Below, piece by piece: positions 742 to 56,842 of a stretch of DNA of 64,000 bases. The DNA is from Mactra quadrangularis (Eukaryota > Mollusca > Bivalvia > Venerida > Mactridae). The first letter of the stretch is position 1. Each line of letters opens with the position of its first letter. The notes under the pieces were generated by a model. The model was not told where the DNA came from and ran no database searches. It saw nothing but the letters and a program-made list of their open reading frames with translations. The DNA is taken from contig CM046301.1 in NCBI GenBank assembly GCA_025267735.1, positions 58,237,872 to 58,301,871 of the forward strand, given 5' to 3'. Position numbers and translations under genes: made by a program.

Positions 742-783
742 ATACGCCCGTTTTGAAAAAACGGTCGTATTATGTTATGCTGT

Positions 784-834
784 TGTCCGTCTGTCCGTCT
801 GTCCGTCTGTCCGTCTGTCCGTCTGTCCGTCCGT
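784..834. repeat. (GTCC GTCT)n microsatellite inside the Helentron-type element
   Basis: About six uninterrupted 8-base units of CCGTCTGT, ending in CCGTCCGTGG. Its place just inside the 5' end matches the GTCY-type microsatellite of DINE-1 and the tetranucleotide tract of bivalve pearl elements. Confidence 0.9.
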
Positions 835-839
835 GGACA

Positions 840-3800
840 ATTGCTTGTCCGGATGATAACTCAAGAAAGGATGAACCTAGGTTCCTCAAATTTTATGTGT
901 AGATAGCCCTTGGGTGGAGGAGGTTCCCTATTGATTTTGAGACCCCAGGGTTAAAGGTCAAGGTCACTGGGACTTAAAATAGGTAAAACTTGTCCGGACA
1001 ATATCTGAACCACCAATGTACCTAAGTTCACCAAATTTAATGTAAGAGTAGCCCATGTGTCAAAGATGTTCCCTATCGGTTTTGGGGCCCCTGCGTCAAA
1101 GGTCAAGGTCACAGTGGCATCATATGGGAAAAAAACTTGTCCTGACAATAACTTAACAACCAATCTACCTAGGATCACCAAATTTTATGTGAGAGAAGCC
1201 CATGTGTCAAGGATGTTCCCAATCGGTTTTGGGGCCCCTGGGTCAAAGGTCAAGGTCACAGGGACATCAAATAGAAAAACCTTGTCCGGACCATAACTCA
1301 ACAACGCCTGTACCTAGGTTCACCAAATTTTATGTAAGAGTAGCCCATGTGTCAAAGATGCGCCCTATTGGTTTATGGGGCCCCAGGTTCAAAGGTCAAG
1401 GTCACAGGGGCATTATATGGAAAAACTTTGTCCGGACAATAAATGAAACACCAATGTACCTAGGTTCACCAAATTTCATGTGAGAGTAGCCCATGTGTCA
1501 AGGATATGCACTATTGATTTTGGGGCCCCTGGGTCAAAGGTCAAGGTCACAGTGGCATCATATTGAAAAACATTGTCCGGGTAATAACTCACTAATGACT
1601 GTACCTAGGTTCACCAAATTTCATGTGAGAGTAGCCCATGTGTCAAGGATGTACCTTATCAGTTTTGGGAAAACAGGGTTAAATTTAAATCTTAAACCAG
1701 AAGATATCAAATTACCAAGCTGTGACTTCAAATGTTCTATCAATATGTTTATAAAGTCAAAACGGCAAACAATGAAACACTTGTCCAGACAATAACTGAA
1801 CCACCAATGTACCTAGGTTCTCCAAATTTTATGTGAGGGTAGCCCTTGGGTAAAGGTTATGCCCTATTGGTTTTGGGGCTCCTGGGTCAAAGGTCAAGGT
1901 CACAGGGGCATCATATTGAAAAACCTTGTTTGGACAATAACTCATCAACGACTGTACCTAAGTTCACAAAATTTTATGTGAATGTAGCCCTTGTGTCAAG
2001 GATGTTTCCAATAGGTTTCTGGGCCCCTGGGTCAAAGGTCAAGGTCACAAAGACATCATATAGAAAAACCTTGTCCAGACAATAACTGAACCACCAATGT
2101 ACCTAGGTTAAATAAATTTTATGTGAGAGTAGCCCATGTGTCAAAGTTATGCCCTATTGGTTTTGGGGCCCCTGGGTCAAAGGTCAAGGTCACAGGGGCA
2201 TCATATTGAAAAACATTGTCCGTGTAGTAAATCAACAATGACTGCACCTGAGTTCACCAAATTTCATGTGAGAATAGCCCATGTGTCAAGGATGTGTCTT
2301 ATCAGTTTTTGGGAAACAGGGTCAAGTTTAAACCATCATCCAGAAGATATCAAATTACCAAGCTGTGACTTCAAATGTTCTATCAATATGTTAATAAAGT
2401 CAAAATGGCAAACAATGAAACACTTGTCCAGACAATTACTGAACCACCAATGTACCTAGGTTCATCAAATTCTATGTCAGGGTAGCCCTTGTGTCAAGGA
2501 TATGCCCTATTGGTTTTGGGGCTCCTGGGTCAAAGGTCAAGGTCACAGGGGCATCATATTGAAAAACCTTGTTTGGACAATTACTCATCAACGACTGTAC
2601 CTAGGTTCACAAAATTTTATGTGAATGTAGCCCTTGTGTCAAGGATGTTCCCAATAGGTTTTGGGGCCCCAGACCCAAAGGTCAAGGTCACAGAGGCATC
2701 ATATGGAAAAACCTTGTCCAGACAATAACTGAACAACCAATGTACCTAGGTTCACTAAATTTTACGTGAGAGTAGCGGAAGTGTCAAGGTTATGCTCTAT
2801 TGGTTTTGGGGCCCCTGGGTCAAAGGTCAAGGTCACAGGGGCATCATATTGAAAAACATTGTCCGGGTAATTACTCAACAATGACTGTACCTCGGTTCAC
2901 CAAATTTCATGTGAGAGTAGCCCATGTGTCAAGGATGTGCCTTATCAGTTTTTGGGAAACAGGGTCAAGTTTAAACCTTCAACCAGAAGATATCAAATTA
3001 CCAAGCTGTGACTTCAAATGTTCTATCAATATGTTAATAAAGTCAAAATGGCAAACAATGAAACACTTGTCCAGACAATAACTGAACAACCAATGTACCT
3101 AGGTTCACTAAATTTTATGTGAGAGTAGCCCATGTGTCATGGTTATGTCCTATTGGTTTTGGGGCCCCTGGATCAAAGGTCAAGGTCACAGGGGCATCAT
3201 ATTGAAAAACATTGTCCTTGTAGTAAATCAACAATGACTGCACCTAAGTTCACCAAATTTCATGTGAGAGTAGCCCATGTGTCAAGAATGTTCCCTATTG
3301 GTTTTGGGGCCCCTAGGTCAAGTTTAAACCATCATCCAGAAGATATCAAATTACCAAGCAGTGACTTCAAATGTTCAATCAATATGTTAACAAAGTCAAA
3401 ATGGCAAACCATGGAAATAATGCTATATTTAATAAGTAACATGAATTTAGTTCACCAAATTTTATGTGAGGGTAGCCCATGTGTCAAGGATGTTCCCAAT
3501 TGGTTTTGGGTCAAAACTGGGTCAAAGATTGAGGTCACAGGGGCATCATGTGGACAATCCTTGTCCAGACAATAACTTAATATGTAATGTGTTGATAGCT
3601 CTTTGGTATTGGATGTTCTCTTTTGATTTGGAGACCCCAGGGTCAAAAGTCAAGGTCACAGGGACTTAATTCATATTGAAACATTTTCGGGACAGTAACT
3701 CAATAATGATTGTACCTACATTGTAGGTTTTCCAAATTTTATTTAAGGGGAGCCTTAATGTCTAGCATATGCCCCTTTGGTTTTAGGTCCCTGGGTTAAA

Positions 3801-4090
3801 GGTCAAAGTCACAAGAAACATCATGAGGAAAAACCTTGTCCAACAACCAACTTTACCTAAGATCACCAAATTTTATGTATCAATACTCTTTGGGTCAAGG
3901 GCGAGAACTTTTGGTTCTGAGGCCCCAGGGTCAAGATCACTGGAAGTTTGTATGGGAAAACTTTGTGTCGGTGATAACTCAACCATGGCTGTACCTAGGT
4001 TCTCAAAATCTTTGCTTTGGATAGCCCTCCAGTTAAGGATGGGACCTATTCTGAGATCCCAGGGTCATTGGTCAAGGTCACAGGGACTTC
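840..4090 (+). repeat. About 146-bp central tandem repeats with a higher-order period of about 643 bp
   Basis: A unit of about 146 bp recurs through the element. It is recognisable by GGGTCAAAGGTCAAGGTCA, by CTTGTCCGGACAATAACT, by ACCTAGGTTCACCAAATTT and by GTAGCCCATGTGTCAAGG. Four units carry a longer variant middle (AAGATATCAAATTACCAAGC at 1701, 2344, 2987 and 3340). The first three are 643 bp apart, showing that blocks of several units were duplicated together; the last is 353 bp on. Units decay towards the right end (from about 3600). Each unit has a stop codon in the forward frames, so the short open frames here are by-products of the repeat and not genes. Confidence 0.9.
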
Positions 4091-4155
4091 ATATGAGATA
4101 GAACACAGCATGGACTGCACACGGGCGTATAATGCCCCGCCCAGCGGAGCTCTTG

Positions 4156-4204
4156 TTGGTTTAGGTTGAGGAGTTAGCAGTTCTACCATGATTGGTTTTG
4201 GTTT
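4156..4204. repeat. 43-bp minisatellite, right remnant beyond the insertion
   Basis: This continues the 43-bp unit (GGTTTAGGTTGAGGAG, AGCAGTTCTACCATGATTGG) immediately after the Helentron-type element, proving the insertion is younger than the array. Confidence 0.9.
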
Positions 4205-4579: not shown

Positions 4580-5402
4580 TAGGGCTGTCAACGGAAATCA
4601 CAATATCAATGTATCGCCGATTCTTGCCAGGTGATTCAATTTCGATTTGCAATTTAGAATATTGATACAATCTAGCATTTTATAAAGCTATAAACTATAA
4701 TTATAATAATAATAATAAAAACAATAATGACTTTATTTACTGTGGATAACATATTTGGCTTAAACCAATCTTCAATATGGTCCACACATATCTAAATTAA
4801 AGTAACATTTAATTTTACTTCACTGCTTTGTATTTATCTTTTCACTTGAATAGATGAAACAGAATACAGTTTGTTTTAGTTTGTTTAATGTCTAAAACAA
4901 CTTTTATTTTAACATAGGCACATGCGCCTAATAATGAACAAAATATTCCTCGTGACGGCTGTTATAATTTTACTCCCCACGTTAAATGAGCTAAGCCGAA
5001 AATAGTGCCTGAGTTTATGAAAGGTATTGACTTTAACAGGGCCTTGGATGTCCGTAATAAACATGTCAGTAAATGTAAAACATGTTCTAATCTTATCACT
5101 TGGAGGAAAAGGGTCTAAATTGAGTTTAAAAAGATTCTAGCATTAAAAGACCTACTTCAAGACATTTTCTAAGTCCCAGTATTTCCCGGTTCCGCTGTCT
5201 CATTTCATTCTGCGCTTCACCCAACGATCGTGCCAGCCATTATACAAAAAAATACAAAGATTGACTATTTAATTCAAGCCAATCTGTGCATAGCATAATA
5301 TAATGGAAATGGCTACGTGTAATCTTTCTGACTCATTATATCACCGATACTAAAATGCCTTTCGATGTATCAATACAAAATTTTCTGTTAATGACAGCCC
5401 TA
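4580..5402. mobile_element. hAT-like non-autonomous element, 823 bp
   Basis: Ends TAGGGCTGTCA and TGACAGCCCTA form an 11-bp terminal inverted repeat. The adjacent 8 bases are ATATGGAG on the left and GTATGCAG on the right, a 6/8 match that fits an aged 8-bp hAT target duplication. The subterminal regions are also roughly inverted (GTATCG and GATGTATC type sequences). The interior has no open frame of note. Assignment to hAT rests on the TIR sequence and the 8-bp duplication length. Confidence 0.8.
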
Positions 5403-5927
5403 GTATGCAGACCTGACAATGGTCCCAGACAGTGACAGTGTAAACAGGGCTTAACATTCTATACTACAATAAATGTCTACTGGTGTTATATAAGTTTAAC
5501 TTATAGGTTATAATGTTGTTGTTTTTATAGTTTCCACCCCACACATTGTTGAGATAACTCGGTAGATTGTAAGATATTTCTATAGTTTTGTTCTTTATGA
5601 ACTTAAAATTTCTAATTTGTACTTAGCTGCTAATTTTTATTCGCGTTTTTATTCAAATTTAACTGCCTCAATGGTTCTTAATTTGCCTGAAGTATAAGAA
5701 AAGGCAATTCTTAAATAATAAAAACCTTGAAATTTACGATAGAAGCATATTGTAGACTGTTAATACAGACACACACTGGATAGGGCTACAATATAAGTGC
5801 ATTTCTTAGAAATTCCTAATATGCATTTGCATACTGTGTAATGTATATTTCTTGATATTTGTTTCATCTTTTTATCTTGCAATATTATATACTATCATGA
5901 TAAGTAGATATCAAAATGTTTGTTTTT
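5403..5927. other. AT-rich stretch, nothing recognised
   Basis: Many short A/T runs; I see no repeat family member or coding signal. Confidence 0.4.
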
Positions 5928-6200
5928 AGCCGGATTTTTCAATGAAAAAATGCGGCTAATAGTTTGGCGAAACACGGCCGGGTGTACGGTGTCGTTAACA
6001 GTAGCGTTGAAGTTTTCGATTTAGCATATATCTCTGCCATTTATTGTCAGATCTTTATGAGACTTCATACAGTGATAACATACCATGTGATGAACAGATT
6101 TAGACAGTAACCACAACTCTACCTGGCTCTATTATTGATTATTTCCCTTTGTAATTTTTGCGTTAAAGTTTTTAAATCTGGCTTTTGTGGTTTGTTTTTC
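5928..6200 (+). mobile_element. Small Helentron-like element, copy 1 (decayed 3' end)
   Basis: This begins with AGCCGGATTTTTC, which folds against GAAAAAATGCGGCT three bases later. It runs in parallel with the copy at 55561-55855 through shared blocks such as TTTAGCATATAT, TCTGCCATTTATTG, CTTCATACA and GTGATGAACAGA, and through GCGTTAAAGTTTT near the end. The subterminal inverted repeat is AAATCTGGCT. The 3' stem-loop and TTCTTGTT seen in copy 2 are degraded here (TTTGTGGTTTGTTTTT). No coding. Confidence 0.75.
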
Positions 6201-18944: not shown

Positions 18945-19663
18945 TAGCTCGACTTTACCAAGTAAATGGAGAGCTCTCCTATTCGCCCTAGCGTCGGCAT
19001 CCGCATCCACATTTCTGATGTTTTCTGAAAGTTTTTGTGCAGTAAAATATTTTTTACTATAACTTTTTTGTTTCTTGAGGTATCAACTTCAAACTTGAAA
19101 TATATGTTCCTTATTATCAACTACATCTCATGTGACAAATACTCCAAGTACATTTTCTTCACAATTATTCCCCCTTGAACTTAGAGTTTTCTTTAAAAAA
19201 ATGCTTGTTTTTACTGCAACTGTTTTGTTTCTAAAGGTATTGACTTTAAACTTTAAATATATATTCCTTATTATCAACCACATCTCATGTGACAAGGTTC
19301 ATAACTCCAAATACATTTTTTTAGTAATATCTATTTGAACTTAGAGTTTTCGTTAAAAAAATGCTTGTTTTTACTGCAACTGTTTTGTTTCTGTAGGTAT
19401 TGACTTCAAACTTTAAATATATATGTTCCTTATTATCAGCCACATCTCATGTGACAAGGTTCATAACACCAAATTCCTTTTTTTTTCAAAATTGTCTCTG
19501 ATGAACTTAAAATTTTCTTTAAAAAAGTATATTTTTTTTACTTTAAATTTGTTAAGGTATCATTTTCAAATTTTAAAATATGTATGTTCCTTATCATCAA
19601 CCACATCTCATGTGACAAATACTTACTTAGTCGAGCATGCTGTCTCCTCTGACAGCTCTTGTT
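18945..19663 (+). mobile_element. Helentron-like non-autonomous element with ~160-bp repeats
   Basis: The start AGCTCGACT (18946) folds against GAGCT at 18971. Its inverse, AGTCGAGC, lies at 19629-19636, just before the stem-loop GCTGTCTCCTCTGACAGC (19639-19656), which is followed by TCTTGTT. This is the same end layout as the element at 742-4155, with a different sequence. The interior holds about three and a half units of ~160 bp (TATGTTCCTTATTATCA at about 19103, 19261, 19422 and 19583; CACATCTCATGTGACAA in each). No coding; open frames at 19132-19338 and 19423-19665 are repeat by-products. Confidence 0.78.
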
Positions 19664-20098
19664 GATACCGCTTTTTATGTCAAGCCTAATAAATGTCAAT
19701 CACATCAGCTTTTTAATAACTTTAATACATTACTTTTTAAATGTAAATAAGATTCCTGGTAGAAAAATAAAAAAAAACATGTCGCTTTTTTTTCAAGTTT
19801 TTATCTTTAAAACATTATAGGGAACAGTCTCGGAAGAATTAAATATTTTTATTTTATTATTTTGAAATTTGACAAATTCGCCTGACTCAGTCCATTAGAC
19901 TTTTGGTTTAAATTTAACCCAGACAATAGTGATAACAAGCTCAACATAACTGTCAGCACAAATAATTGTTTTGATTATTAATTAATTATGTTAACTAACT
20001 TAATTATAAATTTATCACACTATATCAGATATTATATACATTAAATATGTAATTAAAACCTCATTACCTTATGTAACTGAATAAAAACCACCTTATTA
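19664..20098. other. AT-rich stretch, nothing recognised
   Basis: No feature seen between the Helentron-like element and the pogo-like element. Confidence 0.35.
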
Positions 20099-24067: not shown

Positions 24068-24381
24068 TTTTGTTTTGTGTTTGTTGGGTTAAACGCCGTA
24101 GCAACACATTGTATAGTTTATATAACGGCAGTCAGTCAACCTACTCACTCCTCCTGGAAAGGCTAAATCATGGATTTAGCTGTTAACTAACTACTAAGCA
24201 CATACTTTCGTCAGTGACTGAAAACTGCCCTACATAATTGAAAATCATTGGTAAGAGGGAGTATGACTGTAGAAATAATTTCATTACCAAGCTCCACAAA
24301 AGTATGCCCCGCCCGGGAATCGAACCCACATTGTCAATCAATAGACTTGTGTGCTACCAACTGAGCTAGCCGGGCAGCTAC
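24068..24381 (-). mobile_element. tRNA-derived SINE, family B, copy 1
   Basis: On the minus strand the head reads GCTGCCCGGCTAGCTCAGTT, with an A box in TAGCTCAGTTGG and a B box in GGGTTCGATTCCC. The body matches the plus-strand copy at 32637 through CCAATGATTTTCAATTATG, TAACAGCTAAATCC and GAGTAGGTTGACTGAC, and ends TGTTGCTACGGCGTTTAACC with an A-rich tail. A 13-bp target duplication with one mismatch, AATA[A/C]TGGTACAT, flanks it at 24055-24067 and 24382-24394. It needs a LINE reverse transcriptase supplied elsewhere. Confidence 0.9.
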
Positions 24382-24394: not shown

Positions 24395-25622
24395 GTTGTA
24401 TTTTTAAAATGATATCACACAACTGAAAGAATGTTTATCGTTTATTGATAGTAAATGTTCAAATTCATTGAATTACTAATTTCAATAAAGTAATTCCAGC
24501 ATTCTATCGTTCTTCACTTGTCAGCAGTCTAAATAAATTGACTACAATCTTCATTGTAAACATACTGCAATGTCATCTGTGACTGACACATTGTATGAAT
24601 CTTAAAATGATAGCTAGTAATTTCATAGATTGAAATATAATGCACAAATAGATTATATTCTAATATACATTAATTTGTAGTTTTACTTTGACATTGAAAT
24701 TCTAAAGGAGTGTAATAATTTGATACTATGATATAATACATTTGTAGTTTATTAGTTTTATAGGGGTTTATATTTTATCGTAAAATGCACCAAACCATGG
24801 TTTATCGCCTCTTTTATTACAGTTGTGCAGCATTATTACAGTATTAATTTATCTACATTTACAACATAATATTGTTAACATCTTTCGATATTGTCCTATA
24901 CTTTATTTCACTGTAATTTTATAATGCTATAAAGCTATCAAACATTCAATTTATAAAGTTTCAAATCTTGGCTATGTGATTACTCAACATACAATTCTAT
25001 CACTTTTTGCTACCACTTTTACTGTATTTATGATATGAGTTTACTTGGGTGCCTTGTATTTTCCTATGGCTGAGCCATATTGTGCTATGATAGCAAGCGG
25101 AATCTTGAATTAAAGGATTTTGATGAGATTCCTTGCTGCAATAGATCATGCCTTCCATGAAAATTCAGATGTTATATGAATATTTTATCATATACATGAA
25201 TAGGGTGAAGGTTTTCAACTATTGTCTTTAAAGGGTACTCAAGTTACTGATAGCATTCCTTGATAACTAGTTAGAGGAGCTGGCCACTTAAAATAACCAG
25301 ACTATAAGTGTTAATATATGGCCTTCATTTAAACAAATCAGTCTGAATAACTACAAAGGAGTAAGTCTCAGTCACTGCATTGACCAACTAGCCCAAAGCC
25401 TTGGTCTAGAACAAAAACAAGTTAATTTTATATAGTCAGAATGGTTGATCAATTGCCCCCGTACTAATAAATTGGGCTAGTGCTCTAGAACAATTAAGGA
25501 GAGAACTGCAGCCTTACTTAGAAGATGACAATGATGTTAAAACACTGAACTGACTAAATTTATTATGATCTATTTTAGAAGCTTATTGCTTTATCTTTAA
25601 TACTTTAAGTATTGTTTTATCT
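24395..25622. other. AT-rich stretch, nothing recognised
   Basis: No repeat structure or coding signal seen. Confidence 0.35.
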
Positions 25623-32636: not shown

Positions 32637-32945
32637 AAGCTGCCCAGCTAGCTCAGTTGGTAGCGCACAAGTCTACTGATCGAGGGATTGTGGGTTCAAT
32701 TCATGGGAGGGGCATACTTTAGTGGAGCTTGATCATGAAACTATTTCTACTGGTTCTCTCTTCTACCAATGATTCTTAATCATGTAGGGTTGAGTTGTCC
32801 TAGTATGGGCCTAGTAGTTTGTTAACACATAAATCCAGAGATTTAGCTTTTCTAGGAACAGTGAGTAGGTTGACTGACCGCCATTATAAAATTATGACCT
32901 ATACAATGTGTTGCTATGGTGTTAAACCCAACAAAACAAAAAAAG
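32637..32945 (+). mobile_element. tRNA-derived SINE, family B, copy 2
   Basis: The head GCTGCCCAGCTAGCTCAGTT and B box GGGTTCAATTCAT are followed by the same body as the minus-strand copy at 24068. The end is TGTTGCTATGGTGTTAAACC with a CAAAA-rich tail. An 8-bp target duplication TGATAATA flanks it at 32629-32636 and 32946-32953. The segment TTCTACCAATGATT ... AGGGTTGAG is the part that matches the minisatellite at 244-741. Confidence 0.92.
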
Positions 32946-35910: not shown

Positions 35911-38526
35911 AACAAGAAATGTCTTTAAAAAAGACAAACGGCGTCGATTTAAAAACAAGTGTGCTCACCTGAGGAAAAGGTCAAAGGTCACAGTAGAGCC
36001 ATTTACAGAGGACCACTAATGTTAAAACCTATTTTTTGACCCAGTGACCTACTTATCCAACCAATCAGACCTATTTGAACAATTTTGGTAGGGAACCACC
36101 CACGGACCATTCCTGTTGAGTTTGGGCAAATTATCATAAGCGGTTCAAGAGAAGATGTTGTTTGAACTTTTCCTTATATAATTCAATGTAATATTGTGAT
36201 TCATGGGGTGGGGTCAATTTTGACCCAGGGGCATAATTTGAACAACTGTGATGGAGGACCTCTAGATGATGTTATATACCAAATATGAAAGCTCTAGGCC
36301 TTGTAATTTCAGACAAGAAGATTTTTGAGAATTGCATTGTGAAAACCTATTCATTAATGCTACAAAACAAAAATTATGAATTTATTCTTAAGGTTCTGGA
36401 ACTGTAATGGTGACCTTCCACAATTCTTATACTGATATTGTTTCTTGATCTGTACTATTAAAGACATTGAATGCTGAAATTTTAAAGAAATTTACCGTCT
36501 GTAACTTAAGTTATGTGCATTTTTATAACGTGACCCTTCATTTTTAGAAAGACCGTAAATTGTGCTGGGACAAAAAGTGAAAGAACTTTTTTTTTCAAAT
36601 TCTGCTGTTTTATTTCCAAGTTTTAATCCATTTTCTTGTTATACAGTCATGTAATGACAAATCAGAGCAACCAGGTTACACTTTGGACAAATACATATAA
36701 AAATACAGAGATTTGCATACATGTACCCCCAAGCAAAAATCCGAGTTTTTGAGAATGTTAAAAAATTTACCCTATCTTTAAAAGCAAATATCTCAAGTTA
36801 GAAGTTAGTTAGACACATGCAACTAGTTTTAAAATTTTCTGCAGTATTAACTGCCCATATAATGAAAAATTTAAGAAATTTTACCGTTTCTAAAATTTTT
36901 TATAAGAATTTGTATTAGATTACTGTACTGAAACTGCAAGAGATTTTATAGAGAAAAATAACGTCAAAATGGTCAATTACAAATAATACTACTTTATACA
37001 AATATATCATCTAAAATTGGTATTTGAGATGGAAAATGTATGTTAAACTCTGCATTATCATATAAAAACCTTCTCTCCATTGCTTTTTGGCAAACTTGAG
37101 GGGACTATTTTGGGGATTAAACTTGTACCAGCTATGTTTTCTGCTGTTGTCGTTTTTTGCACTAACAGTCGGACACTAGAGTTAGTAATGTTGGCATATT
37201 ATGTGCCTTAGCTTTCAAATTATGCTGTTGATTGTATTGTTTTTTTTTATAATTAGAATATGATGATATTAAAAACAGAAAATGTGCAATGATTTTGTCT
37301 TTATATGCTGACTTTGGTACGATTATTTGTGGGAATTCGGCAATAAATCAATATAAGTTAAACATTCTTTCCAGTTTATCGATATTTGTGTAGTTTATTT
37401 TACCTTTGTTCATTTTCAGTACACAAAATAGATTAAACAATCAAAACCCCATTTTGCCCCAAATTCTCCATTTCGTCCATTTCGCCTCAAAATCTCCATT
37501 TCGTGTTTCAGTCATACCCAATTTACATCGCAAAAAAAGATGAAAAAAAATGTATTTTACACCTGTACAAACAGAATCAACGCAAAAGTTATGATCCACT
37601 ACGGCTTTTCATTGTTTTTATGTCGATAAACCATTATTTTTACGATAACTAACTACGATCACGCTGTAGAGCGTCTGGTTTCGCCATTTTCGGAAAATGC
37701 GTTACCCTATGACTTCTGGAAAATCCCACGTCAAGTGGTAAAAATTTCTAAAAATAGCAATTACGAAACTTGACGAAGATAGGTATTTGGGAAAAACCCT
37801 ACTTAATTATTGATTTGATAAAGGGAGATAACCGCTGTGGGGAGTTTGGTTTGACGTGTCTATTTTTAGTTTTATCTATTTTTAGACACAACCCCCCCCA
37901 TTTTTTTGTTGATTTTTGGCAGTTTTTGCAAATATCAAGAGGCTTTGTCAAAAAAGAATTGTCAACTTGATATGCCGGTATATGTGTGCTCCAGCGACAA
38001 ACAAAAGATTTATTTAAAGCTGCGCAGTTTCTTCCTCAAAACAGGAAACTCACAAATTTAATAGTATAGATGTGGAGCTGTGACTCTCAAAGTGTAAACC
38101 CCGGAAACTGGACGTAGTGAGGCTTACTTAATAATTATTGGGTAATATGTCAGACTTTTTACTAGAAACCGGTTCACATCTGGAGACGTAATTCATTTTA
38201 CCCATAAAATATTGTGTTTGACACGTAACTTTTTATTGTTACAATATAAAAACACTTTGGAAAGCAATAGAAGTCTACCCAAAAAAAAAAATCTACGAAC
38301 GAAGCAAAATTTCGTAAAACACTGCATTACAATAGTGTGGCCTTTATTTTTTCGCGCGTGTCAGGGCCATCCAATCGAAGAGGGGATTTTCTCTGTTTCC
38401 CCCGTACGTCATTTTCAGTGCTTATAAAATCATCCAATAGAACGGCGGATTTCCGAAATCCCCAGACAGACGTCATTATACAGAAATGTAGGTCAAAATC
38501 CAGCTTAGACAGCTACGCCGAAAAAA
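35911..38526 (-). mobile_element. Helentron-like element Y, long copy (minus strand)
   Basis: On the minus strand the 3' end is at 35911: AACAAGAA (35911-35918, inverse of TTCTTGTT) next to the stem-loop GTCTTTAAAAAAGAC (35921-35935) and subterminal CGGCGTC. The 5' end is at about 38526 (inverse TTTTTTCGGCGTAGC). Blocks 35911-35995, 36353-36392 and 38068-38526 recur inverted in the copy at 39842-40748, which lacks the 1.67 kb between 36393 and about 38060. An inner DR1-like AAAGGTCAAAGGTCAC lies near 35978. No Rep/helicase coding was seen. Confidence 0.72.
38365..38440 (+). promoter_or_regulatory. Promoter-like motif cluster inside element Y
   Basis: CCAAT at 38371, TACGTCAT (CRE-like) at 38405, TATAAAA at 38423 and CCAAT at 38434, with a GC-richer context (TTCGCGCG). 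The same cluster is retained inverted in the short copy at about 39925-39995. Whether it drives transcription is unknown. Confidence 0.35.
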
Positions 38527-39717
38527 CGCTATGTATTACAAGTACTGTTACATACATTGTACTGATATTTATTGGACAAAGTCCCAAAGTTTCTAATCTT
38601 TATCAAATTTATCAAAATTGGCAAGTGCCAAGTTTTGCAGGAAAAAGTGCACATTTTGAATTCAATTAAATGCATTGAATGTCAGTTAAGGTGATTTTTA
38701 TTGCACATGATAAAATACTTTGATAGTTTTTTAGATTTAATTTTTTGTTTCTAATTCAGTCTGCTTCATTGTATATAAAACTTGCAACCTGCCCAGTTAA
38801 ATCAATCAGTAATGTACATATGTGACCTCTTGATCCAGGCATTGTTGAGATGTGCTCCTGCAACTGTAACTCATGAAAAAAGCCACGTTTTCACTCCCAA
38901 TTAATATAATTGATTTATATCAATTGGTCCATTTAGTACTTAGAGGGCACTTCAGAGAAAATAGAATATTTCCAACCATGTGTAAGCCAAATTACCATAG
39001 CCATGTACACCTTCATACTAGTACATACATGTAGTTGTACTTTTAAAAAAGGTGATTTTCATCTTCAATATTACTACATAACATACATAAAAAGATTGTA
39101 CCTACATTACGAGAGTGATTTACTAACTTCAATTTAACCTATTTTCTTGAGGTTGCTGTACAAGATTTTCAAAATTTTCTACTTTTCGAGAAAATGAAGA
39201 TTTATGGTTGTTAGTGAAGTATTTAGTTGAAAGGAAAAGTTTGTCTACTATGAAAAATACTTGTAAAGATAAATCTAATGATTAATAGTTAGACATACAT
39301 ATCTGAAAGAATGCATGTTGGAATTACAAAAATCAAACCATAACACACTCCGCCTCTATAATAAATGATAAAAATATACCCCCGAGTCAAACTGATGATT
39401 GCACTACATTAAGGATGTAAAACTTGTTACATACATAGTTCTTAAATAATTCGGTTGCATATCCAAGTCACTGTTACATTTTTTCTGCTTGTCTGAATGA
39501 ATAACAGATTTATTCTATAATGCCTTGCTAAACAATTTCTAAAATATATCAAAGAGATTATTCTGGCTTTCTGGTTCACATTAGTTAGTGATTAGGGACT
39601 TTAAGACCCTTTCTGCCTTGGTCTCTGGTCAGTAACTTCACTTGACTTTAAAGGGGCCTTCTAGTGTTTACAATTATTAAAATTTTGTAACTTGGGTCCT
39701 GGAGAACCTTTATATTT
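38527..39717. other. AT-rich stretch, nothing recognised
   Basis: This lies between the long Y copy and the hAT5-like element. No repeat or coding signal. Confidence 0.35.
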
Positions 39718-41115
39718 CAGGGCTTGACAAATGTTTTGGAAGCAACTCGTCCTGCTAGACAACCAGCTTAGAATTTTCACTTGTCCTGCTGCAATATGTA
39801 CTTGTCCTGTACTCTCTGAAGGAAAATGCAATAATTGTTAATTTTTTCGGCGTAGCTGTCTTAGCTGGATTTTGATCTACATTTCTGAATAATGACGTCT
39901 GTCTGGGATTTCGGAAATCCGCCGTTCTATTGGATGATTTTATAAGCACTGAAAATGACGTACGGGGGAAACAGAGAAAATCCCCTCTTCGATTGGATGG
40001 CCCTGACACGCGCGAAAAAATAAAGGCCACACTATTGTAATGCAGTGTTTTACAAAATTTTGCTTTGTTCGTAGATTTTTTTTTGGGTAGACTTCTATTG
40101 CTTTCCAAAGTGTTTTTTTATATTGTAACAATAAAAAGTTACGTGTCAAACACAATATTTTATGGGTAAAATGAATTACGTCTCCAGATGTGAACCGGTT
40201 TCTAGTAAAAAGTCTGACATATTACCCAATAATTATTAAGTTAGCCTCACTACGTCCAGTTTCCGGGGTTTACACTTTGAGAGTCACAGCTCTACATATA
40301 TTTATTAATCCGCAGAGTTATTGGTACGTAACTTTTAAGAATAAATTCATAATTTTTGTTTTGTAGCATTAATGATGTATAATTTCATGTATTGTTTATG
40401 AAAAACGAATACAGCACGCAATCTGGTTTCAAGAGAAAGATATATTGCAATTAATTCCAGAACTACTTTTAGTGTAATAGTGTAAACTGGGAAAGAATGC
40501 GTTGCAATGCAGTTAGAAGGCGGTTAGAAGTAACAACATTGAACGGGCAATGGAGATCAAAACAATGGTAAGGATTATTAACGGTCGATTTCACCAAGGT
40601 CAGATAATTATGCTCACAAGCTGCAGGTTATCAGTGTACGGCAATTTCTGTGACCTTTGACCTTTTCCTCAGGTGAGCACCCAGGGCCCTTTGGGCCCTC
40701 TTGTTTTTAAATCGACGCCGTTTGTCTTTTTTAAAGACATTTCTTGTTAATAGTATGAAGCAGTAACAAACATGTCATTTGTTTTATAGTGATTCTGTAT
40801 TTTAAGCACTTGTGATAACATAACGCAGTTGCAGGTAACTGTTAGATTTAGCACAATGTATTGGAATGGTCACAAGTATATGAAGGCCATTCAACAAACA
40901 AAAAGTAATCTACTCCATGTGTTCTGATTGCAAGTGATGAATTATGCTTAATTTGTTGTGTTTTCGATAAGACTATGCAGTTAAAACTTGAAAGTTGTTT
41001 ATTTCGGCTAGAAATTTAACTTGTCCTGCAGGACAATCCCTGCCAGAAGATTAACTCATTCTGTGTCAAATTCTACACGTAATTATGAGCGAACAAGTGG
41101 ATTTGTCAAGCCCTG
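39718..41115. mobile_element. hAT5-like element X with TATTT duplication, hosting a Y copy
   Basis: CAGGGCTTGACAAAT at 39718-39732 and its exact inverse at 41101-41115 form a perfect 15-bp TIR. TATTT flanks both sides (39713-39717 and 41116-41120). Repeated ACTTGTCCTG / CAGGACA words lie subterminally at both ends. CAGGGC termini with a 5-bp duplication fit the hAT5-type group. Most of the body (39842-40748) is a nested Helentron-like copy; without it X is about 490 bp and non-coding. Confidence 0.85.
39842..40748 (+). mobile_element. Helentron-like element Y, short copy (plus strand, nested in X)
   Basis: The 5' end is TTTTTTCGGCGTAGC. The 3' end has subterminal GACGCCG, the stem-loop GTCTTTTTTAAAGAC (40724-40738) and TTCTTGTT (40741-40748). 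Upstream is a second, complete 3' terminus: CAGGTGAGCACC, stem-loop GGGCCCTTTGGGCCC (40684-40698) and TCTTGTT (40699-40705). TTGTTAAT occurs at both junctions (39835-39842 and 40744-40751), a possible 8-bp duplication or a consequence of the TT target. It is an internal-deletion derivative of the copy at 35911-38526. Confidence 0.75.
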
Positions 41116-47790: not shown

Positions 47791-48415
47791 AATTGCTATC
47801 AAAGTAGAAAAAAATAGTATAAACTGAACTTGTTAACTCAGTCTCATAGTGGACATGTTGCCACAATCTTGCAAAGCAAGTTTAATTTATACATTTTCAT
47901 TATAAGAGGTTAAAAAGTTAATGATTTGTAGTAAGTCTGTCTGAAGACCACAGTATTTCATTCATTCATATTCCAGCAGTGTATCATAATGTAATCTCTA
48001 ATCAAATGTATGCAGATTTAGTATCATTATTTATTGCTATACAAACAAACACACTATAAACAGTTCATGAATAAGTTAGTGTATTTCCAACACAAATATT
48101 TACACTACAAACTGTTTCCTATTCAAAGATATATGTTTCAAAATAGATAGAAATTTCCCAGCTGTATCTAAATTTTTGTTGGTTGAAAATCTAAGAAACT
48201 TGGGTGGCTAGCATGGCACGCTTAATGTAAAATGTAGCATGCATTCTGTAATTGATTCTACCATATAGACATAAGCTTATCAATACTGTATGCTAATTGG
48301 TATGTAGTTTGAAAGCTTGTGTCTTCACATTGATATAAACCATGAGGTTCTGAGAGACAAGCACTAGTTTATCATGTTTACCATGAACAAATCTTGAAGA
48401 CAGCTGACAAGCTCT
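47791..48415. other. AT-rich stretch, nothing recognised
   Basis: No feature seen before the 38-bp array. Confidence 0.35.
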
Positions 48416-51044
48416 GGAATATAAAGTTCCTGTAGAGCCATCTGAGGAGTATGGGGAGTATGGTAACATAAAGTTTCTATTGAAATATCTGACAAGCCTT
48501 GCGATATCTGCTTAGACTTGAGATATCTGACATATTTAGATATCTGACCGTTCTTGTAAATATAGAGTTTCTATTGAGATATCTGACAAGTCATGTAATA
48601 TAAAGTTTTATATTGAGATATCTGACAAGTCATGTAATATAAAGTTTTATATTGAGATATCTGACAAGTCATGTAATATAAAGTTTTATATTGAGATATC
48701 TGACAAGTCATGTAATATAAAGTTTTATATTGAGATATCTGACAAGTCATGTAATATTAAGTTTCTATTGAGATATCTGACAAATCATGTTATATAAAGT
48801 TTCTATTGAGATATCTGACAAGTCTTGTAATATAAAGTTTCTATTGAGATAGCTAACAAGTCATGTTATATAAAGTTTCTATTGAGATATCTGACAAGTC
48901 ATGTAATATAAAGTTTCTATTGAGATATCTGACAAATCATGTAATATAAAGTTTCTATTGAGATATCTGACAAATCATGTAATATAAAGTTTCTATTGAG
49001 ATATCTGACAAATCATGTAATATAAAGTTTCTATTGAGATATCTGACAAATCATGTAATATAAAGTTTCTATTGAGATATCTGACAAATCATGTAATATA
49101 AAGTTTCTATTGAGATATCTGACAAATCATGTAATATAAAGTTTCTATTGAGATATCTGACAAATCATGTAATATAAAGTTTCTATTTTGATATCTGACA
49201 AGTCATGTAATATAAAGTTTCTATTGAGATATCTGACATGTCATGTAATATAAATTTTCTATTTTGATATCTGACAAGTCATGTAATATAAAGTTTCTAT
49301 TTTGATATCTGACAAGTCATGTAATATAAAGTTTTATATTGAGATATCTGACTAGTCATGTAATATAAAGTTTCTATTTTTTGTTATCTGACAAGTCATG
49401 TAATATAAAGTTTCCATTGAGATAGCTAACAAATTATGTAATATAAAGTTTCTATTGAGATATCTGACAAATCATGTAGTATAAAGTTTCTATTGAGATA
49501 TCTGACAAATCATGTGATAAAAAGTTTCTATTGAGATATCTGACAAGTCATGTGATAAAAAGTTTCTATTGAGATATCTAACAAGTCATGGAATATAAAG
49601 TTTCTATTGAGATATCTGACAAATCATGTAATATAAAGTTTCTATTGAGATATCTGACATGTCATGTAATATAAAGTTTTATATTGAGATATCTGACAAG
49701 TCATGTAATATTAAGTTTCTATTGAGATATCTGACAAATCATGTTATATAAAGTTTCTATTGAGATATCTGACAAGTCTTGTAATATAAAGTTTCTATTG
49801 AGATAGCTCACAAGTCATGTTATATAAAGTTTCTATTGAGATATCTGACAAGTCATGTAATATAAAGTTTCTATTGAGATATCTGACAAATCATGTAATA
49901 TAAAGTTTCTATTGAGATATCTGACAAATCATGTAATATAAAGTTTCTATTGAGATATCTGACAAATCATGTAATATAAAGTTTCTATTTTGATATCTGA
50001 CAAGTCATGTAATATAAAGTTTCTATTGAGATATCTGACATGTCATGTAATATAAATTTTCTATTTTGATATCTGACAAGTCATGTAATATAAAGTTTCT
50101 ATTTTGATATCTGACAAGTCATGTAATATAAAGTTTTATATTGAGATATCTGACTAGTCATGTAATATAAAGTTTCTATTTTTTGTTATCTGACAAGTCA
50201 TGTAATATAAAGTTTCCATTGAGATAGCTAACAAATTATGTAATATAAAGTTTCTATTGAGATATCTGACAAATCAAGTAGTATAAAGTTTCTATTGAGA
50301 TATCTGACAAATCATGTGATAAAAAGTTTCTATTGAGATATCTAACAAATCATGGAATATAAAGTTTCTATTGAGATATCTTGACAAATCATGTGATAAA
50401 AAGTTTCTATTGAGATATCTAACAAGTCATGGAATATAAAGTTTCTATTGAGATATCTGACAAATCATGTAATATAAAGTTTCTGTTGAGATATCTGACA
50501 AATAATGTTATATAAAGTTTCTATTGAGATATCTGACAAATCATGTAATATAAAGTTTCTATTGAGATATCTGACAAATCATGTAATATAAAGTTTTATA
50601 TTGAGATATCTGACAAATCATGTAATGTAAAGTTTTATATTTTGATATTTGACAAGTCATGTAATATAAAGTTTCTATTGAGATATCTGACAAGTCATGT
50701 AATATAAAGTTTTATGTTGAGATATCTGACTAATCATGTAATATAAAGTTTCTATTGAGATATCTATCTTGAGATATTTTACAAATCATGTTATATAAAG
50801 TTTCTATTGAGATATCTGACAAATTATGTAATGTAAAGTTTATATTGAGATATCTGACAAATCATGTAATATAAAGTTTTATATTGAGATATCTGACAAA
50901 TCATGTTATATAAAGTTTCTATTGAGATATCTGACAAATTGAGATATTTTACAAATCATGTAATATAAAGTTTCTATTGAGATATCTATCTTGAGATATC
51001 ACACAAGTCTTGTAATATAAAGTTTCCATTGAGATATCTGACAA
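48416..51044. repeat. 38-bp minisatellite, about 69 copies, with internal higher-order duplication
   Basis: Unit: TTGAGATATCTGACAAATCA then TGTAATATAAAGTTTCTA. It contains the palindrome AGATATCT. A block beginning with the rare variant TAATATTAAG at 48753 recurs at 49707 (offset 954). By the rare TTTTTTGTTATCTGAC variants (about 49380 and 50185) the offset has fallen to about 804, so the two blocks differ by four units. The right end (from about 50750) has irregular, partly truncated units. Confidence 0.97.
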
Positions 51045-52470
51045 TAAATGTATTGTAATACTACATTAGATACATTCTGATTAGGGCTGAAGTTTCAATA
51101 GTTATCTTGTATTTTGCTTTATTCAATTACCTCTTTGATAGAATCATATGTAAATATTATGTTTGTGTTAAGAATATTTTGTTGGTAAAAGTTCAGTCTG
51201 TCTGGCCTACTTTGAAATATTATTGAATAATTATTTTAAATTAACTACTAATTCTAGTGCTTTACTGATGTTTGTAAAAACATAATGCTGACTGGATTAA
51301 ACATTATAGAGGACTTCATCTGATAAGACAGCCAGTATGGTACAGTAACACTCCATCAATAAGATGATCATTAGGACCAACTTGTTTGTTGGTAAAGTTT
51401 TGATGAACTTTACTTCTTTTTTTAATACAGGAAATATCTGAGCTTGTTTTGTTTATTATATAATAGGGGCCAAAACACATTTAAACCCTTACCCTAACTG
51501 TAGCTTTGTATTTTTATGATGCAAGAATTCTTTATTATGACATTAAAAAAACATAAATATCACCTTGAATTTCGGTAGATTAAAATGATTTTAGTATATT
51601 TTGTGTAGTAATGAAGTTTCATGAACCAATGATATTACACTGATTAGTGAATTTTGCTGACGTTGAATGAAACTGAAAATGAATTACATTTGCAGTGTGA
51701 TGATTTCCAGGATTTGGGCGGAACACAAATTTATACCTTTCCTCTTTAAATGTGATTGATATCAGTAGAAATGTTTGCCACTGAACAGATCTAAGCCAGT
51801 AGACAATTTATAAAACATGAAATAATACCTATCTGATATTGTATGTGATGAATCAATAGGATGTTAGATACAAAAATGGAGTTTCCTCAATTTTTTATAC
51901 AAATCTCCTGATTCTCGTCCTATTCTGCTGCGTGTTATTCCGTTTTTCGTACCACCTTGCAAGTTTTTTCCATCTTCTATAATATGTGATGAAATTTTTT
52001 TGTCTTTTGGTAAACTTTTATGTATTTATTTTTTATTTTTTGTAGTAACGTACTACTTTATGTAATGTCTGGCAAGTTTTTGTACACCTCAATCTGTGTT
52101 AGTAATGAAACATGCTGAAATTTTCATTTTTTTTGTATTACAACTGTTACTATCACAGAAAAATTGCTTAATCTTCAAAAAGCTGTCTGTATTGTCTGCA
52201 ATGTTGATTGTTCTTACAACAATATTGTTGATAATTGACATCAACATTAATTGAAGAAAAAAATCTGATGATGTTTTTTTTCTTTTTTATATAGGTATAT
52301 TAGTGTGTTACTGAGTCAACTGGGTTTTATTTGTATTTAAGTATAAAACTTTGTTGTTTATGTTTTGTTTGCACCAATTTGCATTGATTTACTTGTTACC
52401 CCACTAGGTTATTCATTGTTTAATGTATTCACAGGAGTAGGTTTGTAAATTTTGACTTAAACTTGAACCA
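51045..52470. other. AT-rich stretch, nothing recognised
   Basis: T-rich tracts; no repeat structure or coding signal seen. Confidence 0.35.
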
Positions 52471-52833
52471 CTAATGCCTCAGTCCCATAAAATCGTGGCT
52501 TGCTGCGGACCCGTACGTGCAGACAGCTGTAGGCCGTGGGAAGCCTTGCGTGCAAAGGTGACGGCCATGTAAGCACATGGCACAAAACAACACATTCATA
52601 TGGAGCCGTAGGTGGAAGATTGCAAGTTTAATTCATACTCGGCCACGATTGGGTTCACGATTTGACTCTGAAACTGATATGTGTATCCTGGGCTCATCTC
52701 ACAGACCCTGGTAAAAACGTAACAGTACGTACAGGTACGCAAGAGTTCGTACGGATCCTTGCGGAGCTTGATCGCACGGCGCCCGTACGGTGCCCTCACG
52801 GCTATTTTTATGTTTATGGGACTGTAGCTTTAG
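52471..52833 (+). mobile_element. 360-bp TIR family, copy D (full length)
   Basis: The ends CTAATGCCTCAGTCCCATAA and TTTATGGGACTGTAGCTTTA plus G are inverted repeats. The interior is closest to copy C and in the same orientation (CCGTACGTGCAGACAG, GGCACAAAACAACACATTC, TCCTTGCGGAGCTTGATCGC). Open frames 52596-52799 (-) and 52662-52844 (+) are by-products. Confidence 0.92.
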
Positions 52834-54092: not shown

Positions 54093-55560
54093 AATACGAA
54101 CTATCAATTGTCTTTAACTGTAGCAGAAATGTAAAAAAAATATTGAAACAACTTAAAACTTACTGAATCTAAATATACCTACCTTCAATATTATTCTTAA
54201 AAAAAGTAAATGATGTATATTGAAACTTAAAATTTGTATATAAAAGTTGTTAAGGACAATTTCAGACAGATTTGAACAATGTTCTAGGTAAACAATGATT
54301 TATTGTCTTATACAAGCTATAAAAGCTACAGGCTGTATTCTAGGTCATGCATGTTTTTGTACACAATATTTAATTGTATACAATAGACTTGCCCACTAAA
54401 TAAGTGCATAAGCTTATGCATAAACAGTATTTTACTGATTTAAACCTGCCAAGTGCTGTTATATTTAACGTTAATTTTAAATAGTATATATTCACATTGT
54501 AAATTTTAATTAGTGGTATGTTTATAAAATAAGTGAAAAGTAACTCAACTACAAAACTGTAAAATTAATTCACCCCTAAATATCAGGGGTAATGAAACTG
54601 GCTATGTTTGTATATGCAATGTTTACATGGATGACTTGTATAATAGTTAAATAATACAAAAGACTTACATCATAGAGGCAATAGAGTTCAGTGCACCTAT
54701 TCACAAAAACTCTTACAAAAAAAGTTATTGTCAGTCAATTTCATAAATTTTGCTGTTTCAAAGTCGGAAGGATAATAAACATAATTATGATATGATATTC
54801 AAATGGTTTACAATAACCTACGTAATTCAATAATTTTTAGAATTGATTGACCAAAAATTGACTGCTTTGTCAATGTTTCTTGTTTTTTTTTTACTTACGA
54901 AGATTTTATCGTAATATATTTTTGTAAAAAAGCGCCACTGTTCTGTCCCTGTCTGCCTCTTTTTCTGCTGTGTGTACAGGTTTCTAAAAACTATTATAAA
55001 AAGATAATTAAACTATACTTTTATCCTTGGATTTACTGCAAACAAACTTTAAAGTTTGACTAATGTGATATCTTGCTGATCATTTGAATGAATTGATAAC
55101 TTTTACTTTTTTAAGACTTTAAAAATCATTAATATTGTATGTTTTAAAGACATCTATATCTAAGTCTGTTAGTTGGAAAAACTGTAAACTGAGTTCATTT
55201 ATAAATTGAGTTCTATTTGATCTTAAAGGTACCATTTAACAGTCTATGAAAATAAAACAAAGTTTGATTGGCAAACATTTGATTATGTATAATGTATGTT
55301 AAATGTAAGAATAGGGTGAGAGCGTATTTCTAAACATGAAAAAATTGGCGATGTTTTCTGAGACACCTCCAAAATCACAGGTTGTTCAAAGTTGTCCAAA
55401 TTGAAGGCACAATGTTAAGTAAGACTAGCTATGGTGAATTGGGATACAATACAAAGCTCAGTGATATTTTGCTTGTCTATTCAGAGAATAGTGGTGGGGT
55501 ACCCTACCAAGTAAGCCAATATAAACCTTTTTGGTTTTAGATTTGCATAAAATGTTTTTT
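54093..55560. other. AT-rich stretch, nothing recognised
   Basis: No repeat structure or coding signal seen. Confidence 0.35.
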
Positions 55561-55855
55561 AGCCGGATTTTTCTATTAAAAAATTTAGCTACAAGTTTGC
55601 CGAAACATGGGCGGGCGGGCGTCCTGTGTCGTTAACAATTGCGTTAAAGTTTTCAATTTAGCATATATTTCTGCCATTTATTGCTAGATCTTCACGAAAC
55701 TTCATACAATGATAACAATACTATGTGATGAACAGAGTTAGAAAGTAACCGCAACTCTATCTGGCCTTATCATGCATTTTTCCCTTTGATTTGAATTTTT
55801 GCGTTAAAGTTTTGAAATCCGGCCTTAATGTGGTTTCCACATTACATTTCTTGTT
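55561..55855 (+). mobile_element. Small Helentron-like element, copy 2 (complete)
   Basis: The 5' AGCCGGATTTTTC is mirrored by subterminal GAAATCCGGCC (55814-55824). Then comes the stem-loop AATGTGGTTTCCACATT (55827-55843) and TTCTTGTT (55848-55855). It sits at a T-rich site. It is homologous along its length to 5928-6200. At 295 bp it has no coding and must be moved by another element. Confidence 0.82.
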
Positions 55856-56650
55856 ATCTTTATCATAATGTCCATGCTCCTGTTCCAAGTGAAGTAATCA
55901 AGAATTATGAAGATGTTCACTTAGCTATTATTTAAAAAAGAAATTTGTTGTGGAATGAATGTTTTGTGAGCCAGTCACCATTGGTAAAGAAGCGTTAATA
56001 AATGGCATAAAGTACAAAAGCTAAAATAACTAACTTTAAGTTTTCTACATACTGTACCTTTAAACAAATCAGTAATGAGGATATCTACCTTGGATTATGT
56101 TATAAAATTATCATTTATAATATTCAAGCTGTGAAGAAAATAGTAATTTCAATGTATTTCTTTTACATTATGTCTTGGAATTTTGCCATTTATTTTAAAA
56201 ATGGGTCACCGGGTAACCGTAAAATGAAATAAATGTATGTAACTTTTGGAAAATGTATGTCAAATAGAAGAATAAGTCTTTGTGCAAAGCGCATGGGAGT
56301 AAATTTTTTATTGCAGTAATTTAAGATATCATTTAGACCTTAATTTTGTTTTTCTAATTATGCTCAGCTGATAATGTCTTGAAATGCTAATGAACTGAAT
56401 AATGATTATAGACCCCTTTGATAGAATATGTACTTAAGTACCACTCGACCTATCTTGGAACATAATACATTATTGTAATGTAGTTCTTTAGAATTTTTTA
56501 TTGGTTTACATTACATTTAAGTATTTCATAGACTTTTAGGGACTTGTTTCAAAGTACATATCCTTGTTGTCTAGTCAAAACCTCCTAACTTTACTTTTTG
56601 GAATTGAAGATACATGGTTTTGACTCAACTATGATGATATTGAATTTGTT
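55856..56650. other. AT-rich stretch, nothing recognised
   Basis: No repeat structure or coding signal seen; GGGTCACCGGGTAACCG near 56204 is a lone GC-rich near-palindrome. Confidence 0.35.
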
Positions 56651-56842
56651 AGCTCACTTGGGCACATTGCGCTTATGGTGAGCTATGGTGACCTGTCTTG
56701 AAGAAATAGTATTATCTTAAGGGGGTCTACAATGTTTAATCAATTCTTATTAACTGTCAGAGTTAAGATTGAGTTGTGTTACAATTGTCTTTAACTTTTT
56801 CTTGTCAGGTGAGCAATTATAGGCTGAAGAGCCTAATTGCTT
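56651..56842 (+). mobile_element. Short Helentron-like deletion derivative
   Basis: 5' AGCTCACTTG folds against GTGAGCT at 56679-56685. Subterminal CAGGTGAGC (56806-56814) mirrors the 5' end, followed by the stem-loop AGGCTGAAGAGCCT (56821-56834) and a degraded terminus AATTGCTTAA in place of TCTTGTT. 192 bp, non-coding. Confidence 0.65.

Follow-up and report, generated by a model that had tools for sequence, protein, structure and literature searches.

A diverse population of non-autonomous Helentron derivatives (HINEs) is already known from a bivalve. The account available in part for Crassostrea gigas (PMC7492417) describes HINE families unrelated in all modules and 10 autonomous Helentrons, none of which could be related to the HINEs, and in that part it is left open which autonomous elements move them. 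The Cg_HINE elements described there have a 5′ ATIR with a complementary inverted repeat, a GTCY-type microsatellite, central tandem repeats of 140-180 bp and a 3′ ATIR with a palindrome, and they occupy T-rich targets with no TSD. As far as the available portions of PMC4067079 go, HINE and DINE-1 elements are Rep/Hel(/EN) derivatives with common subTIRs and a 3′ stem-loop. They insert at TT, with ambiguity about which Ts belong to the element. Helitron2 elements, among them FoHeli of Fusarium, are described in the accessible text of PMC3627910 and PMC5148889 as having ATIRs and hairpins at both ends, the 5′ ATIR lying inside the 5′ hairpin.

We analysed a window of 64 kb from Mactra quadrangularis, that is, the whole stretch of DNA examined, and found five non-autonomous Helentron/Helitron2 (HINE) families in it. 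The structural features named above recurred among them, insertion without TSD being seen in el1 and the ATIR and 5′ hairpin being short or weak in family D; the central repeats are ~145-160 bp long here. Unlike the Cg_HINE elements of the C. gigas account, two families were tied to Rep/Hel elements by both ends. The sequences differed from those of the described HINE and DINE-1 elements, and the partner of one family (family D), unlike theirs as far as described, had no detected endonuclease. The 3′ end was TCTTGTT, unlike the ATTTT or CTCCTGT given for FoHeli in the available text. No literature text pairing CTTGTT with Helentron was found, figures and supplements being outside the scope of that search.

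The window elements are very probably HINEs, and each family would be mobilised by its own Rep/Hel protein acting in trans. HINEs are a known kind of element; the links from families to Rep/Hel partners are new. As two families are tied by ends and inner sequence, trans-mobilisation and end recognition become directly testable. One route for the spread of satellite-like arrays is also indicated, since a Rep/Hel element itself carries the ~145-bp repeats.

HINE families in the window

The layout of a family was a T-run followed by the 5′ inverted repeat (ATIR) and, at the other end, a copy of the ATIR, a hairpin and the 3′ end (T)TCTTGTT. Every complete HINE 3′ end within the window was TCTTGTT. 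The sequence-only reading had likened this layout to Helentrons, and it does match Helentrons/Helitron2 and their HINEs. All 3′ termini it placed were present (4121-4157, 19629-19663, 40684-40705, 40711-40748, 55814-55855, a decayed one at 56806-56842 and an inverse one at 35911-35945). It had taken five of them for complete ends of different elements; the sites are real, but 40684-40705 is a fossil inside family D and ends no element of its own. It had also noted that the start of each element is mirrored before the stem-loop. The terminal 5′ ATIR was indeed mirrored directly upstream of the 3′ hairpin in el1, el2 and el3; the mirroring was partial in family D (a CGGCGT core) and decayed in 56651-56842. 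That reading had missed that the ATIR also lies within a 5′ hairpin, as in all five pieces folded (el1, el2, two el3 copies and the decayed element; the weakest was el3, -5.0), the 5′ hairpin of family D being weak. Its claim of unrelated interiors held, as self-blastn (E<=1e-3) joined none of 742-4157, 18946-19663, 55561-55855 and 35911-40748.

None of the 140 longest stop-to-stop window ORFs, all scanned against Pfam in two batches (94 + 46), matched a Rep, helicase or transposase. The matches at E<=0.01 belonged to eight unrelated families, the best at 4.1e-6 (NADH_dhqG_C). Rfam and ARAGORN scans found nothing.

The first element, el1, lies in a satellite array:

244..741, plus strand: 43-bp satellite, the target of el1, resuming at 4158 with GGTTTAGG
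742..4157, plus strand: el1, complete 3416-bp HINE with a satellite empty site, matched at both ends by Rep/Hel elements (C16, C11); at the boundary one or two Ts are ambiguous
742..770, plus strand: el1 5′ ATIR ATACGCCCGT within the 5′ hairpin (DNA fold)
784-831, plus strand: TGTCCGTC microsatellite (Tandem Repeats Finder)
844-3549, plus strand: central tandem repeats of ~145 bp (Tandem Repeats Finder)
4121..4157, plus strand: 3′ ATIR, hairpin GCCCCGC-CCA-GCGGAGC (one mismatch) and TCTTGTT end

Excision of el1 in silico gave GATTGGTTTTTGGTTTAGG, the same as three of the nine uninterrupted satellite units listed, and the satellite register across the element was exact (GATTGG at 731 and 4190, equal to 3416 + 43). 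The proposed check for TT empty sites thus came out as expected for el1, with a T-rich target and no TSD longer than the ambiguous T/TT. The 3′ hairpin was the best fold only for 4131-4157 taken alone (-4.3); with the ATIR included, the best structure paired the ATIR with the left arm of the hairpin (-6.8). A HINE with ATIR TATACCCCCGC in the Rep/Hel locus E05 supplied a second empty site: the related E06 lacks the element and differs by a single base next to the junction.

The region 35911-40748 consisted of two head-to-head copies of one family, D:

35911..38520, minus strand: D1, a HINE of family D; 5′ terminus at 38520, with a T-run ahead of CGGCGTAGCTG, and 3′ terminus ...TTTCTTGTT at 35911
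39848..40748, plus strand: D2, a HINE of family D, derived by deletion from the Rep/Hel element on C10
40671..40705, plus strand: GCTCAC-family 3′ end preserved as a fossil inside D (ATIR, AGGGCCC-TTT-GGGCCCT, CTTGTT), directly before D's own 3′ end
40711..40748, plus strand: D2 3′ end, with ATCGACGCCGTT, hairpin TGTCTTT-TTT-AAAGACA and TTTCTTGTT

The inverse terminus at 35911 is the 3′ end of the minus-strand copy, and what looked like a mirrored start of 40684-40705, at 35961, is this D 3′ region again in reverse orientation. The D ATIRs agreed over only CGGCGT and scattered bases. The fossil end was present in D2 and in D3, a further copy near another Rep/Hel locus, and its hairpin was missing from D1. 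Family D has two terminators in series.

The remaining elements were as follows:

18946..19663, plus strand: el2, HINE; ATIR GCTCGACT at 18947-18954 and 19629-19636; 5′ hairpin, central repeats of ~160 bp (19051-19618), hairpin GCTGTC-6-GACAGC and TCTTGTT
55561..55855, plus strand: el3, HINE; ATIR GCCGGATTT at 55562-55570 and 55815-55823; 3′ hairpin TAATGTGG-TTT-CCACATTA, then CATTTCTTGTT
5928..6193, plus strand: second copy of el3; its strong 5′ hairpin differs from that of el3 by base changes, and it has lost the 3′ hairpin and end
56651..56842, plus strand: decayed GCTCAC-family HINE; a T precedes the AGCTCAC 5′ hairpin, and the 3′ side has ATIR GTGAGC, a hairpin and a decayed end

The case for el3 came from its two window copies, which were 82.2% identical (5913-6193 against 55549-55836, self-blastn), and that for the decayed element from its likeness to the GCTCAC end. 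The el2 3′ end had no match in public collections, nor had the GCTCAC 3′ end in the public genome-contig collection. Among public viral contigs, 16 matched the hairpin and CTTGTT pattern, none with GTGAGC within 30 bases upstream; two more viral matches turned up.

Rep/Hel partners in the host genome

The host genome (979 Mb) contained 36 matches to the Rep profile PF14214 (E<=1e-3), against none in the 14 control genomes, and 13 of the 36 were read, at least in part. Rep/Hel elements with the ends of window families, which the sequence-only reading had suggested looking for, were found for el1 and D, in both cases with the 5′ and 3′ ends. The refuting condition set by that reading, absence of any such element from the genome, failed for these two families.

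Both ends of 742-4157 were found on two Rep-helicase-endonuclease elements of 26.7 and 28.0 kb (C16, C11). These two loci start with T|ATACGCCCGTTTTGAAAAAACGG.CGTATTATG and finish with the el1 3′ sequence. Their proteins matched Pfam Rep, PIF1 and Exo_endo_phos above the cut-offs, the endonuclease being C-terminal. The el1 stretch 742..770 was unchanged in the C16 element and had one change in the C11 element; likewise the last 37 letters of el1 were identical to the C16 3′ end and showed one difference from C11. The first ~1.18 kb of el1 aligned to the 5′ end of the C11 element (84.5%). On the 3′ side only the last 38-44 bp were common with the partner, and the origin of the el1 3′ body was not traced.

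Both ends and internal pieces of family D were found on a 17.4-kb Rep-helicase element (C10). The D1 5′ module was 96.3% identical to it, and a central stretch of about 1.68 kb in D1 could not be traced. The pieces of D2 lay at positions 2310-2774 (95.3%), 4999-5341 (90.5%) and 19704-19753 (98.0%) of this element. The 5′ end of the D partner was read at one Rep/Hel locus only and the 3′ end at two, since the D2 3′ end terminates Rep/Hel elements at both C10 and C1:2.78 Mb. Of the Helitron2 features, a Rep-helicase (Pfam Rep and PIF1) and a 3′ hairpin were present; the ATIR was short and the 5′ hairpin weak (folded on D copies). Because no endonuclease was detected (the ORF was scanned as two pieces of 1606 and 81 aa, together with three downstream ORFs), this partner is not classed with the Helentrons.

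Different ends were seen in two further Rep/Hel families of this genome, TTCTAGTT in family I and TTTGATT in family III. Families II and III had an ATIR, a 5′ hairpin, a 3′ hairpin and a Rep-helicase. The insertions by which three family III copies (E08, E09, E10) differ were considered as HINEs and rejected, since their inverted ends suggest cut-and-paste elements. Reading 10 kb at the Rep/Hel element of C2:394121 did not reveal its 3′ end. The GCTCGACT, GCCGGATTT and GCTCAC families had no partner among the Rep matches read, which were 13 of the 36, in part or in full. The users of TCTTGTT comprised one lineage bearing an endonuclease and one with none detected, and a closer relative ended otherwise.

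Probable mobilisation of the families

The large protein-coding Rep/Hel elements probably move the el1 and D families. Each family has its own ATIR and hairpins, which a cognate Rep/Hel protein acting in trans would recognise. The 26.7-28.0-kb Helentrons encoding a Rep-PIF1 helicase-endonuclease go with el1, and the 17.4-kb Rep-helicase element goes with D1 and D2, D2 being a plain internal-deletion derivative. Insertion would be into T-runs without TSD, as shown for el1. By analogy with the groups to which the families belong, replication may be rolling-circle or peel-and-paste, with mobilisation in trans. Interior differences would stem mainly from different parents, deletion and tandem-repeat growth also reshaping the interiors.

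TCTTGTT might instead be a terminator that rolling-circle lineages can exchange as a module, which we regard as unlikely; its use by two lineages so far apart, the other end of the closer relative and the serial terminators of family D would fit such a module. Rather unlikely, too, is the proposal of the sequence-only reading that, through a common 3′ code (T)TCTTGTT, a single Rep/Hel machinery replicates elements of all families, with any cargo. Every complete window HINE ends in TCTTGTT, HINEs with ATIR TATACCCCCGC end in TACTTGTT, and TCTTGTT is common to two Rep/Hel families. Yet a single machinery was not supported, because the two Rep/Hel lineages matching two families are divergent (only 25-28% protein identity between the el1 and D partners), because the traced interior parts derive from the partner, and because other Rep/Hel families end differently, so that (T)TCTTGTT is no universal end. 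Family III, ending in TTTGATT, is 40.5% identical in protein to the el1 partner. In addition, el1 and D each have their own matching Rep/Hel parent, and ATIRs and hairpins are specific to each family. The untraced el1 3′ body and D1 middle may be foreign cargo, which would suit a single machinery. If Reps did read TCTTGTT in families other than their own, parentless HINEs (GCTCAC, and el2 with its 2198 exact 3′ ends) could be cross-mobilised.

Cut-and-paste MITEs that merely resemble HINEs are a very improbable explanation. The outer repeats of 35911-40748 resemble long TIRs flanked by TA..TA, but a TIR transposon with a TA target was ruled out there, as the right-hand element was copied at another locus without the inverted arm and the flanks of D1, D2 and D3 all differ. 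The el1 empty site excludes a TSD beyond T/TT, and both ends are common to the Rep/Hel partners. Neither el1 nor D had the fixed-length TSD with symmetric TIRs of a MITE.

Copy number and chance occurrence

TCTTGTT was not enriched in the window (22 occurrences where 19.8 would be expected, with 22 or more in 38 of 100 shuffles). Hairpins directly before CTTGTT numbered 10, against a mean of 2.69 and a maximum of 8 in 100 shuffles. The combination of hairpin, ATIR and TT occurred five times (mean 0.83; reached by 2 of 100 shuffles), only two of the five (el1 and el2) pairing with the correct 5′ end, and nine of the 1936 hexamers tested ranked above CTTGTT. A stricter scan gave three matches (mean 0.35; reached by 4 of 300 shuffles), namely el1, el2 and a minus-strand match taken for chance, and 22 of 1307 hexamers, CTTGTT among them, were equally good. 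Window statistics alone thus exclude chance only moderately.

The genome-wide copies of three 3′ ends are decisive evidence against chance. The 34-mer of the el1 3′ end had 832 + 883 = 1715 exact copies by pattern search (a whole-genome DNA search, which skips very common words, gave 0), the el2 3′ end pattern (loop gap of 3-6) 1127 + 1071 = 2198 and the 38-mer of the D2 3′ end 508 + 505 = 1013 exact copies, the reversed control being 0 in each case. The view that hairpins and a common AT-rich heptamer coincide by chance, compatible as it is with the unenriched TCTTGTT and the modest window scans, is refuted for el1, el2 and D by these thousands of copies and has a negligible probability overall.

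HINEs in the window

All of the 3′ termini proposed in the sequence-only reading were present in the window (C9:58237872-58301871; 32.8% GC, host genome 979 Mb). They were assigned to HINEs, non-autonomous Helentron/Helitron2 derivatives in which an inverted repeat at the 5′ end (ATIR) is copied before the 3′ hairpin.

HINEs identified in the window
742-4157: el1; start T|ATACGCCCGT, lying within a hairpin; followed by an 8-bp TGTCCGTC microsatellite and tandem repeats of ~145 bp; the 3′ end has the ATIR copy, the hairpin and TCTTGTT, in this order
18946-19663: el2; order of ends as in el1, different sequences; ~160-bp tandem repeats
55561-55855: el3; order of ends as in el1, different sequences
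5928-6193: second copy of el3; strong 5′ hairpin kept, bases unlike those of el3
56651-56842: decayed member of the GCTCAC family
38520 to 35911, minus strand: D1, family D
39848-40748, plus strand: D2, family D

Motif statistics from the window alone were modest. In the genome, exact 3′ ends numbered 1715 for el1, 2198 for el2 and 1013 for family D. Counting against the layout, the best fold of the el1 3′ end with its ATIR paired the ATIR with the left arm of the hairpin, and not the hairpin itself.

A single long-TIR transposon at 35911-40748 was rejected, as a third copy, near the C14 Rep-helicase (Rep/Hel) locus, was single-armed and all flanks differed. The three copies had identical exact ends (T-run|CGGCGTAGCTG ... 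ATCGACGCCGTTTGTCTTTTTTAAAGACATTTCTTGTT). D1 and D2 are thus separate head-to-head insertions of family D. The terminus at 40684-40705 is real, but it does not end its own element: it is a GCTCAC-family terminator with a GGGCCC hairpin, situated before D's own end. In D1 this terminator has lost its hairpin.

The HINEs agree with the layout described for the oyster Cg_HINE (PMC7492417) and with descriptions of Helentrons (PMC4067079) and Helitron2 (PMC3627910; PMC5148889). The host is probably a bivalve, judging by this agreement with oyster HINEs and by the resemblance of its repeats. HINEs, Helentrons and mutually unrelated HINE families within one bivalve are already known.

Empty sites

The host sequence of el1 was a 43-bp satellite. 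Nine uninterrupted units were listed: GATTGGTTTTTGGTTTAGG stands in three of them, and in the other six the run contains additional Gs. With el1 in place the sequence was GATTGGTTTTT|ATACG...CTTGTT|GGTTTAGG, and the distance from the GATTGG at 731 to that at 4190 was 3416 + 43 nucleotides. Since the junctions match the 43-bp register, no target bases were lost, and the duplication is T or TT at most. The T ambiguity at the boundary is that described for HINEs (PMC4067079). A second empty site involved a HINE unrelated to el1 (ATIR TATACCCCCGC, end TACTTGTT), found inside one Rep/Hel locus and missing from the corresponding position in its relative. Here, too, the site was a T-run, and a single base differed next to the junction.

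Rep/Hel elements and HINEs with matching ends

Searches with the Rep profile PF14214 gave 36 matches in the host genome; 14 control genomes had no match. Thirteen of the 36 were read (20 kb each at ten, parts of three more), and four families were delimited at at least one end; the C2 locus could not be delimited at either. Protein identity to family II was 40.5% for family III, its closest relative among the four, 31-32% for family I and 25-28% for family IV. Family I ended in TTCTAGTT. Family III had its ATIR (GGAACGATGTC) within a 5′ palindrome and ended in TTTGATT. Its four copies, among them L043 (C7), L041 (C16) and L045 (C9), were mostly >99% alike over long collinear pieces, which suggests recent activity. 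Three of the four carried cut-and-paste-type insertions, separate from one another and bounded by inverted ends.

Rep/Hel elements with matching ends, as the sequence-only reading had anticipated, were found for el1 and family D. Both family II elements (C16, 28.0 kb; C11, 26.7 kb) carried the 5′ and 3′ ends of el1. The 5′ 1.18 kb of el1 aligned to the C11 element at 84.5%, tandem repeats included, and its last 37 letters were identical in C16, with one difference in C11. The source of the el1 3′ body was not traced in comparison with these elements. Family II proteins comprised Helitron_like_N, PIF1 and a C-terminal Exo_endo_phos domain.

Family IV loci (C10 and C1:2.78 Mb) were 97.5% collinear up to the 3′ end of D. 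The 17.4-kb C10 element had both ends of D, the 5′ end being known from this one locus. D2 and the third copy include pieces at or within the ORF start of the C10 element; for ~1.68 kb of D1, no source was traced in comparison with the partner. HINEs of the el2 and TATACCCCCGC types lay at corresponding positions in the two family IV elements (L053, C10; L054, C1); HINEs of other families are thus carried along inside an autonomous element.

The family IV protein comprised Rep and PIF1. Downstream of its gene, a 176-aa ORF (L053:7618-8145, minus strand) matched the HIN domain just below the cut-off (22.5 against 22.7 bits); it might be an OB-fold accessory protein. Herpes_teg_N (Pfam) was located at the N-terminus of Rep/Hel proteins of families III (L043, C7:37821026) and IV (L055, C10:10470632). 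Deubiquitinase domains of this sort, with a C-terminal endonuclease, are described in Helentrons, including those of molluscs (PMC9741609). Unlike these, family IV has Herpes_teg_N and no endonuclease was detected, either in two scanned protein pieces or in three downstream ORFs.

Origin of the HINEs

On the favoured reading, distinct Rep/Hel elements gave rise to the HINEs. Observed directly were the common ends, the common inner pieces, the empty site and the copy numbers. The HINEs would be moved by the Rep/Hel of their partner, presumably through rolling-circle replication. The proposal that one replication machinery accepts any cargo bearing (T)TCTTGTT was not supported. That one terminator is read across Rep/Hel lineages seems improbable; this reading keeps some standing because the distant families II and IV both have TCTTGTT, whereas III, the closest relative of II among the four, lacks it. 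Among the 13 Rep matches read at least in part, none was a partner for el2, el3 or the GCTCAC family. Relative to the oyster paper (PMC7492417), the links between HINEs and Rep/Hel partners are new; priority is not claimed, as the literature compared was open-access.

Other repeats in the window

Two repeat copies (59641-59926 and 63172-63462, 94%) began with tRNA-like boxes (GATAGCGCAGTTGGTAGCGC ... GGTTCGAATCCC); ARAGORN found no tRNA there, and the repeat is probably a tRNA-derived SINE. A second SINE family is probably represented by two oppositely oriented copies of another repeat (24070-24379 and 32638-32944), whose tRNA-like boxes lie on the reverse strand. A MITE-like element of ~365 bp with terminal inverted repeats (CAGTCCCATAAA / TTTATGGGACTG) occurred at 25622-25984, 27935-28290 and 52471-52833, one arm being changed in one of the three copies. 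A 38-bp satellite formed a 2.6-kb array at 48398-51058.
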